From assembly GCA_035559435.1 (NCBI GenBank), contig DATMBC010000037.1, forward strand, positions 1-32,538: a stretch of DNA of 32,538 bases, in the 5' to 3' direction. The stretch is from a bacterium. Lineage in GTDB: Bacteria > Zixibacteria > MSB-5A5 > WJJR01. A model generated the notes under the pieces. It was given only the letters and a program-made list of their open reading frames with translations, did no database searches and had not been told where the DNA came from. Position 1 is the stretch's first letter. Each line of letters opens with the position of its first letter. The position numbers and the translations under genes are program-made. Below, piece by piece: positions 29,089 through 32,538 of this stretch.

Positions 29089-32000
29089 TTAGCGGCGGAT
29101 GACGGCGATCTTGCCGGCGCCGTAGTCGCCCCGCGGGGAGCGCACGACGAACAGATAGATGCCGGTGGCGACCCATTCGCCGCCGCGGGTGCGTCCATCC
29201 CAGCCGACATCGGAGTCGATCTGCGCCACGGTGCGGCCGGCCGCGGTGGTGATGGTGACGCGGCTGCCGGAGGGGGCGTTGAAATGGACCCGTTCATGCA
29301 CGCCGATCTCGAAGGGATTGGGGTAAGCAACGGTCTGTTCGATGTCGGCGGCGGCGGGGGGCGGGCCCGGCGTGCGCGACACGCCGGATCGCGTGGCAAT
29401 CCAGATGTCACCGGTGGCGCGGTCGATGTCAATGTGGGTGACATGATCGCCGACCAGGCCGGAATTGCGCGAGTTGTAGAACGTCATCGCGCCGGCGGCG
29501 TCGCGGACCACCAGACCGAGCGTGGTGCCGATCCAGATGCCGTTGGCGTCATCGACGGCAAGCGTGTTGACGGTCAGCCCGGCCTCGGATGGCATCTCGA
29601 CTTTGAAGAAGCGGCGGCGGTCGCGGGCGTAGCGGGCCAGGCCGAGATTGGTGCCGACCCAGAGCGAGTCGCTTTGGTCATAGAGGATCGCGCGGATGTC
29701 ATCGGACGGGAGGCCATCGGCGGAGGTGCGTCGGGCGACACGGGGAATCTGTGTCACCGGCCGGCCATCTTCGCAGAGCGGCTCGCGGAAATTGATCTCG
29801 GCGATGCCGATGTTGGCGAAGCCGACCAGCACGCTGGAGTCGAGCGGATAGACCACACCGGGACGGTTGGAGGGAATGCCATCGGCCTGATCGAAACGTC
29901 CCCAGCAGCCATGGTCGTTCCAGGCGATCACCGCGCCGGAGTCGGCGAAGCCGTTGGCGCACCAGACGCGTCCCTGATGGTCAACGACGACATCCTGCAC
30001 GACGACATACTCGAAGTCGGCGGGGCGTGTCGGGTTCTGCACCCACATGAGCGAGCTGTTGGGCTTCTTGTAATTGATCGCGGCGCCGGGGTTTTGCGGA
30101 TCGGCCGGATCGACCGCCCAAACGCCGCCGCCGAAGATGCCATACCAGACGCCGCCATCGGGGGCGACATCGACCGAGGTCATCGGGCCGCTGGCGCCGG
30201 CGGAGATGTAAGGGATGGTGTGCCAGCCGCTCTCGTCGAGAAAGGCGGCGCCGCGGTTGGTGTGGGCGGTCCAGAGACGGCCATCGGGGCCGATGGCCAG
30301 GGCGGCCAGGTCGTTGTCGAGCGGCCCATCGGGCTCGATGTGAGTCCAGCCGGCGTCACCCAGCCGCCAGAGGCCGCCGTTGGTCTGACCGAAATAAACC
30401 GCGTTGTCGGTAAGATGAATGCTGGTGAATCCCGCGGCCACGGGCGCGGGCACGGTGCCTTGCGGCGGGACGCGCAAGCTGGGGAAATCACGCGCAATGA
30501 AACGGCCATCGGCAGAGAGAAACCAGATGTGGTAGTCCATGCCGTAGGCGTCGGCGAGGTTTGGGGAACTGACAAAGACGCCCAGACTAAGCGAGTGTTC
30601 TCCGGGGTCATATGACACCAGGGAGTACCCGGCAGCGGCCCCGGCCACGATGCGAGACTCCACATCGCCGATGTAGGCGAGAAACCGCAGCGGCTCGGCG
30701 GTCAGTTGCGTCGCCCAATGGGAGCGATCCAGCAGGAACGGATCGTTGACATCGGCCGCGGCGACCCCGCTGGCGCCAACGGCGTAGAGGATGCCACCGA
30801 CGACAACGAGGTCGGCGACCGCCGACTCATCCGGCCAGTCGCCGATGCGCGTGTACGACTCCTTGATTTCGCCGCCGTTGCGCTGGGTGTCGAACTTGTG
30901 CACGCCCCTGTCGGAGGCCACCCAGAGGAAGCCGTCGGGGCCGGGTGTGGCGGCGTTGAGCGGGATGGGCAACCCGGCGTCATCCTCGAACAGATAGGTT
31001 CGCCAGTTCTGGTCCTGCAGACGGCGAGAGAGGCGGCCGTTTTCACCGCCGCACCAGACCACGCCGTTTGCATCGACGGTCACAAACCGGAGTCGGTTGC
31101 CGCCGAGGCCATCGGCGTTGGTGAAACGCGTCTGAGCGTCCGGATCGCTGTCGAGGAAACGGACCAGGCCGCCGTCGGTGGCCACCCAGACGGTGTCGCC
31201 CGCTGATGCAATGGCGTTGACATCGTTGACGTCGGTGAAGTTGGTCCAGGAACGCGGTGAGGCCTGCGCGGTCGAGAACGGCAACAGAATCAGCAGGGCC
31301 AGAAGCGGCGATTTGACCGGGGGCTTGCGTCGCCCGATGGGGACGGCCAACCAGAGGATCAACGCCAGCGCGAAGCCGGCGCAGGCCTGGCCGAGCCAGA
31401 GGCCATGGCGCACGAAGAAGGTCATCTCACCGGGCTTGCCGAGGGGCAGATCGTGGATGCGCAGATCCGGGATGTACTGATGGGTGGGCTGGTGCATGAC
31501 TCCGATCCGATCAATGAAACACGAGATGCCGGTGTTGGCGGCGCGGGCGAACGGGCAACGTGTCTCGATCGCGCGCAGGATGGCATGGGCGGCATGCTGC
31601 GGCGGCCCGGAACTGAAGCCGTACCAGCCATCGTTGGTGATGGTAACAAAAAACCGGGCGCCGCGCCGCGCGAACTGGCGGATGATCCCGGGAAAAACCG
31701 ACTCGTAGCAAATGGCGGCGGCGTAGGGGCCCTTGGGGTGCTCGAAGAGAACATACTTCTCCCCCGCCGTGAAATGCGCGCCGCCGACTTCGAGTTTGTC
31801 AAGCACCTGGACATAATTCGAAAACGGAATCCATTCGCCGAAGGGCACCAGGTGCAACTTGGCGTGAAAGTCCGGCTGGTAAACGCCGTGGACCAGTTGC
31901 ACGGCGGCGTTGTAGCGCAGATAGCCGCCGTTGTCGAGGCGTTTGAATTCGAGGGTGCCGACCAGCAGCGGGGCGCGCAGTTCGCGCGACAGATCGCGCA

Positions 32001-32538
32001 TTTCCTTCAGGTAGCGCTGGTCGGAGCGCAGGTACATCGGGGCGGCGGTTTCGGGCCAGACGATCAGCTCGGCGCCGGCGGCGGCCGCCGCGCGCGACTG
32101 CGTCTCATAGATGGCCATCGAGCGGTCGACGAAATCGTTTTCCCATTTGGCGTAGGAGTCGATGTCTCCCTGCAGGACGGCGACACGGACCGTGTCGGCG
32201 GAGGCGATCTGCCCCATGCGCCAGGCGCCCCAGAGGATCGGCGCCGCGAGCAAAAGCAGGGCGATCACGGTGTAGCGCAACGCCACCCGCCAGCCGCGGT
32301 CCGAATACTGGCGCCAGGATTCGAAGATGCAGACGTTGACCAACGCGACAAGCAGGCCGACGCCGAGATCGCCGGTGAACTCGGCGATCTGCAGGAGCGG
32401 CAGGGCCCAGACCTGGGACAGCGACAGATTGGTCCAGGGAAAAGCGAGTTGGCCAAGAGTGCGCAGGTACTCGTGGGCGATCCAGAGAACCGGGAACGTC
32501 CAGATGCCGGCGGGGCCGAGACGCACAATCGCGGCGCG
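29089..32538 (-). CDS. lnt: Apolipoprotein N-acyltransferase (Lnt) fused to a PorZ-like double beta-propeller with C-terminal sorting domain; N-terminus outside the window
   Basis: Numbering runs from the GTG at 32526; the frame is open to the window edge and normal Lnt has about 90 more residues upstream. Residues 1-400 are Lnt, which N-acylates lipoproteins at the outer face of the inner membrane: membrane helices (about 1-105), a nitrilase domain with the triad Glu159 (VWPET), Lys223 (HAKLHLVPFGEW) and Cys273 (AICYESVFP), NDGWYG and AANTGIS, then a final helix (374-397). Directly in frame follow a signal-peptide-like segment with an AQA site (403-422), repeats of the two-component-regulator propeller type (about 425-1050; e.g. 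DSLWVGTNLGLARY, ANGIWIGTTLGLVV) and a YPNPF sorting domain (1066-1145). Signal peptide, two propellers and sorting domain is the layout of PorZ. Confidence 0.88.
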   Translation of the reverse strand, partial: RAAIVRLGPAGIWTFPVLWIAHEYLRTLGQLAFPWTNLSLSQVWALPLLQIAEFTGDLGVGLLVALVNVCIFESWRQYSDRGWRVALRYTVIALLLLAAPILWGAWRMGQIASADTVRVAVLQGDIDSYAKWENDFVDRSMAIYETQSRAAAAAGAELIVWPETAAPMYLRSDQRYLKEMRDLSRELRAPLLVGTLEFKRLDNGGYLRYNAAVQLVHGVYQPDFHAKLHLVPFGEWIPFSNYVQVLDKLEVGGAHFTAGEKYVLFEHPKGPYAAAICYESVFPGIIRQFARRGARFFVTITNDGWYGFSSGPPQHAAHAILRAIETRCPFARAANTGISCFIDRIGVMHQPTHQYIPDLRIHDLPLGKPGEMTFFVRHGLWLGQACAGFALALILWLAVPIGRRKPPVKSPLLALLILLPFSTAQASPRSWTNFTDVNDVNAIASAGDTVWVATDGGLVRFLDSDPDAQTRFTNADGLGGNRLRFVTVDANGVVWCGGENGRLSRRLQDQNWRTYLFEDDAGLPIPLNAATPGPDGFLWVASDRGVHKFDTQRNGGEIKESYTRIGDWPDESAVADLVVVGGILYAVGASGVAAADVNDPFLLDRSHWATQLTAEPLRFLAYIGDVESRIVAGAAAGYSLVSYDPGEHSLSLGVFVSSPNLADAYGMDYHIWFLSADGRFIARDFPSLRVPPQGTVPAPVAAGFTSIHLTDNAVYFGQTNGGLWRLGDAGWTHIEPDGPLDNDLAALAIGPDGRLWTAHTNRGAAFLDESGWHTIPYISAGASGPMTSVDVAPDGGVWYGIFGGGVWAVDPADPQNPGAAINYKKPNSSLMWVQNPTRPADFEYVVVQDVVVDHQGRVWCANGFADSGAVIAWNDHGCWGRFDQADGIPSNRPGVVYPLDSSVLVGFANIGIAEINFREPLCEDGRPVTQIPRVARRTSADGLPSDDIRAILYDQSDSLWVGTNLGLARYARDRRRFFKVEMPSEAGLTVNTLAVDDANGIWIGTTLGLVVRDAAGAMTFYNSRNSGLVGDHVTHIDIDRATGDIWIATRSGVSRTPGPPPAAADIEQTVAYPNPFEIGVHERVHFNAPSGSRVTITTAAGRTVAQIDSDVGWDGRTRGGEWVATGIYLFVVRSPRGDYGAGKIAVIRR

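Follow-up and report, generated by a model that had tools for sequence, protein, structure and literature searches.

What is made from a single reading frame that runs through the genes for the lipoprotein acyltransferase Lnt and a PorZ-like protein of the type IX secretion system (T9SS)? Such a frame lies on the minus strand of the window (the whole stretch of 32,538 nucleotides that was analysed), which coincides with contig C37 in a Zixibacteria genome of 106 contigs (G000). As an earlier note on this DNA had claimed, the frame (29089-32538) is uninterrupted and fuses Lnt in frame to what follows; it stays open over 1149 codons up to the contig edge, and encodes Lnt from inside the membrane domain to the last helix and then about 723 PorZ-like residues. 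The 5' part of lnt runs off the end of C37, and the first ~84 positions of the Pfam domain LNT_N are found at the end of contig C90 (C90:13964-14206; the contig ends at 14215), behind purM, as in relatives. By comparison with the relatives, about three codons of lnt are missing between the two contigs, and the N-terminal helices of the eight-helix membrane domain lie on C90, so that the gene does not start at the GTG at 32526, from which the earlier note had numbered its residues.

The Lnt part present in the window (31333-32538, minus strand) makes up the C-terminal two thirds of the protein, i.e. part of the membrane domain, the nitrilase domain and the last transmembrane helix. It scores 272.8 bits with the NCBIfam lnt equivalog TIGR00546 (cut-off value: 132.9), and the Pfam domains LNT_N (positions 92/98-159) and CN_hydrolase are both above their cut-offs. 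The catalytic triad is intact, with Glu163 in a WPE motif (32050-32052), Lys227 (31858-31860) and Cys277 in ICYES (31708-31710) in the numbering of the open frame; these are the E159, K223 and C273 (counted from the GTG) by which Lnt had been called catalytically complete. The last helix LWLGQACAGFALALILWLAVPIG (31333-31401) has a Kyte-Doolittle peak of 2.2 and corresponds to helix 374-401 in a structure model of the fusion.

The PorZ-like part (29089-31260, minus strand, stop included) contains two beta-propellers followed by a C-terminal domain (CTD) of the sorting type (29092-29340; YPNPF ... GIYLFVVRSP...GKIAV), in agreement with the plan that had been proposed for it. T9SS_PorZ (NF052228) is the best NCBIfam profile for residues 532-1144 (E-value 5e-45) and is matched up to its last position (757/757), at 154.2 bits, below the curated cut-off of 260 bits. 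None of the 20 genomes searched with this profile reaches the cut-off (best: 218 bits), and a Bacteroides control matches likewise below it. The best match in nearly all 20 genomes is the protein encoded beside lnt (80-218 bits), and most further matches cover the CTD only. The CTD itself has weak matches to Por_Secre_tail (16.2 bits; cut-off 23) and FlgD_ig (20.1 bits; cut-off 27). An AF2 model of the PorZ-like part (mean pLDDT 82) shows two propellers and then the CTD, and its top PDB match in a fold search is PorZ (5m11; E-value 1.8e-28, TM-scores 0.64/0.62, with 18% identity in the structural alignment), as compared to 0.34 for sensors of the BT4663 type; when only sequence profiles are compared, sensor propellers like BT4663 outscore PorZ in PDB. 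The protein is PorZ-like and probably an orthologue of PorZ, but no certified member of the family. G000 also encodes SprA/Sov, PorU and PorV, and these T9SS genes are found across the genomes searched, including G000 (SprA in 29 out of 29, PorU in 10 out of 10 and PorV in 10 out of 10). The PorV-like barrel of G000 (899 aa; C92:600-7800 region, 643-3342 on the minus strand within it) is encoded directly after porU and carries an insert of ~540 aa with a Reg_prop-like repeat near its N-terminus. Other genomes of the class also have PorV matches that are split in this way.

Among 58 Zixibacteria genomes, 52 by our count have lnt and the porZ-like gene next to each other on the same strand (of the remaining six, most involve the end of a contig, a split contig or an incomplete genome), so lnt–porZ is a pair conserved across the phylum. 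The pair belongs to a conserved block, TPR–priA–purM–(gpmI)–lnt–porZ–FemAB/GNAT–glycosyltransferases, which was found in part or whole in the 12 other genomes examined and is often followed by genes for a C25 peptidase, mraZ and mraW. In the window, the next gene of the block encodes a GNAT/FemAB-like transferase (28037-29080, minus strand; Acetyltransf_6, E-value 2.9e-12; in the same place in many relatives examined), and three glycosyltransferase genes (24816-28055, minus strand; Pfam GT families, conserved order) come after it. A search of 28800-31800 found no promoter-like site. PorZ of P. gingivalis acts together with PorU, to which it hands over the A-LPS that it binds (PMC8545088); these neighbouring genes suggest where a glycolipid partner for PorZ might be produced. 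Our literature search returned no paper on T9SS in Zixibacteria and none on a specific link between Lnt and PorZ, so this is a conserved pair in a phylum for which we found no T9SS literature.

Further along the window, the plus strand (21759-24203), opposite to the dcw cluster, encodes a peptidase of the C25 (gingipain) family that carries a T9SS type A sorting domain; in most of the relatives examined, its gene is close to the porZ block. The dcw cell-division/murein cluster (4317-21351, minus strand; mraZ, mraW, PBP, mur ligases, mraY, ftsW, murG, ftsQ, ftsA and ftsZ) comes immediately after the lnt–porZ–glycosyltransferase block on its downstream side. Beside ftsZ and recG, a frame of 331 aa (3143-4138, minus strand) has no match in Pfam or NCBIfam.

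The fusion is far rarer than the pair. Out of 133 Zixibacteria genomes, only G000 and its congener G002 (a Candidatus Zixiibacteriota groundwater MAG; JACQFV010000012.1) have a stop-free frame through both genes, and the search among relatives proposed in the earlier note thus did find the same arrangement in a second genome. A first scan of genome contigs with a single protein as query gave no match. All other inspected pairs, including that of the congener G001, have a stop or a frame change between lnt and porZ; candidate fusions in G001, G004, G015, G023, G071, G077 and G102 were rejected, as their long frames hold stops or represent a different frame overlapping lnt. In the trees, G002 groups with the unfused G001 (and perhaps with G004), not with G000, and a clade of G000 and G002 is weakly rejected (p-AU 0.037), which speaks against a single shared origin of the two fusions; there may have been two fusion events, or one event followed by re-splitting. 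To the extent that sequence can tell, the fusion is genuine; it is a lineage-restricted join of known neighbour genes, and its novelty is modest.

At the junction, the frame of G000 reads ...LALILWLAVPIG-RRKPPVK-SPLLALLILLPFSTAQA-SPRSWTNFT, and that of G002 reads ...TWLSNRRRRGMMSTASLVLFGLVSAAWIAQA-SPVAARDWTNYT. Either stretch is built like a signal peptide and contains the motif AQA|SP. In G000, a positively charged linker (RRKPPVK; 31312-31332, minus strand), expected to be on the cytoplasmic side according to the positive-inside rule, is followed by the hydrophobic stretch with an AxA motif, SPLLALLILLPFSTAQA (31261-31311, minus strand), with a predicted cut between 31261 and 31260. Judged by motif, hydropathy and position, the putative export signal of PorZ is present as an internal segment, with a charged n-region, a hydrophobic core and AQA, and the unfused porZ genes have ordinary signal peptides at the same position. 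Modelling of the entire frame (mean pLDDT 72) separates the last Lnt helix from the short signal helix, and the residues between the modules (400-428) are below 50 pLDDT; the structure prediction called for in the earlier note has two modules with a linker of low confidence between them.

Each of lnt and the full-length porZ-like gene seems to be single in G000, so both functions should come from the fused frame, as far as gene content can tell. The simplest way to serve both is a polyprotein, and we put the probability that one chain is made and cut into an ordinary Lnt and an ordinary PorZ at about 0.7. As the lnt stop codon is absent, translation would continue from Lnt into PorZ. Both termini of E. 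coli Lnt are cytoplasmic (PMC5500888), which makes a position right after the last Lnt helix a suitable one for an export signal. With the Lnt C-terminus in the cytoplasm, RRKPPVK-SPLLALLILLPFSTAQA would act as the internal signal peptide of PorZ and re-enter the translocon, and signal peptidase I would cut after AQA. Lnt would then stay in the inner membrane with a short hydrophobic tail, and PorZ would be released to the periplasm and carried to the surface by the T9SS via its CTD, so that the mature products would be the ordinary pair in a 1:1 ratio. The topology in this organism, the cleavage and the function of the products are what we infer here.

PorZ may also be made independently, and processing of the polyprotein is possibly not its sole source. 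An in-frame ATG is found at the junction position in 35 out of 37 distinct unfused porZ N-termini; G000 has only a TTG (31348-31350, minus strand), which of all in-frame start-like codons lies closest upstream of the PorZ part and would give MAVPIGRRKPPVKSPLLALLILLPFSTAQA. This codon sits 34 codons before a conserved Trp, and a start there would yield a normal signal peptide of 30 residues. G002 keeps ATG ATG with GAGG just upstream, and overlapping lnt and porZ frames are common in relatives. One could therefore suppose that ribosomes merely run on from lnt, that PorZ initiates at its own internal start in both genomes and that the fused chain is incidental. No Shine-Dalgarno sequence was seen by eye at the TTG of G000; moreover, with lnt lacking a stop, the run-on product would be made in any case, and we regard this explanation as unlikely. 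An error of assembly or sequencing, hiding a stop or a different frame that the real genome has at the junction, would fit a genome in 106 contigs with the window at a contig end, and separate genes in G001 and the other inspected relatives (G002 apart). Third-position GC, however, stays high across the junction (0.84-0.96 in windows spanning it, with no frame change), so an indel artefact is disfavoured; porZ does not gain an ATG in any alternative frame, and an indel would still leave it without one. The separately assembled G002 has the same open junction as well, which makes an artefact quite improbable. The earlier note had taken separate genes in relatives as evidence against its reading; nearly all relatives do have them, and this reads as a lineage-restricted fusion, not as an error.

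The third alternative is the one put forward in the earlier note, a single mature protein in which the inner-membrane acyltransferase stays linked to the surface module. PorZ, an attachment factor of the T9SS, would then be tethered to the inner membrane. One frame is found in two genomes, and nothing in the sequence forbids the linkage. The earlier note had, however, missed the intact signal-peptide-like segment at the junction, whose h-region and AxA site are kept in both fusions, and its claim is left unsupported. PorZ of P. gingivalis is a separate protein, exported by the T9SS with its CTD intact and working at the cell surface (PMC5121618); with porZ apparently single-copy in G000, permanent linkage would leave no free PorZ, and the model has no ordered linker. 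We consider a permanently joined protein very unlikely. If the chain, or a fraction of it, were uncut, lipoprotein N-acylation and the assembly of the T9SS attachment complex would be coupled in one inner-membrane-anchored protein, a direct link between lipoprotein maturation and type IX secretion; we hold this coupling to be highly improbable.

Under the preferred reading, a chain cut at an internal signal peptide, the fusion offers a natural candidate case in which one chain holds both an inner-membrane enzyme and an exported protein's signal peptide. More than the fusion itself, it is the conserved lnt–porZ pair and this natural internal signal peptide that are of lasting use.

Compared with known systems, the Lnt part shares with Lnt (TIGR00546; E. 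coli structure, PMC5500888) the nitrilase domain with its Glu/Lys/Cys triad, the last transmembrane helix and an equivalog score above the cut-off, and differs in that it has no stop codon and continues through a signal-peptide-like segment into another protein. With P. gingivalis PorZ (NF052228; PDB 5m11; PMC5121618, PMC8545088), the second part shares the two propellers and CTD, the single copy and the presence of T9SS genes in the same genome, whereas its signal peptide is internal, its profile score is 154 bits against a cut-off of 260 and the identity is 18%. The separate lnt–porZ pairs of other Zixibacteria have the same order and strand, mostly overlap or lie within ~100 bases of each other, and in many genomes are followed by the same FemAB/GNAT and glycosyltransferase genes; they differ from G000 in having a stop codon or frame change between the genes and a porZ with its own start codon. 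A precedent for the proposed processing is the cytochrome b/c1 polyprotein (fbcH) of Bradyrhizobium japonicum, which is cut by signal peptidase. The plan is the same, in that a membrane protein comes first and an internal signal peptide behind it serves to release the exported partner; the proteins are unrelated, and the cleavage was demonstrated by experiment for fbcH, whereas here it is predicted from sequence.
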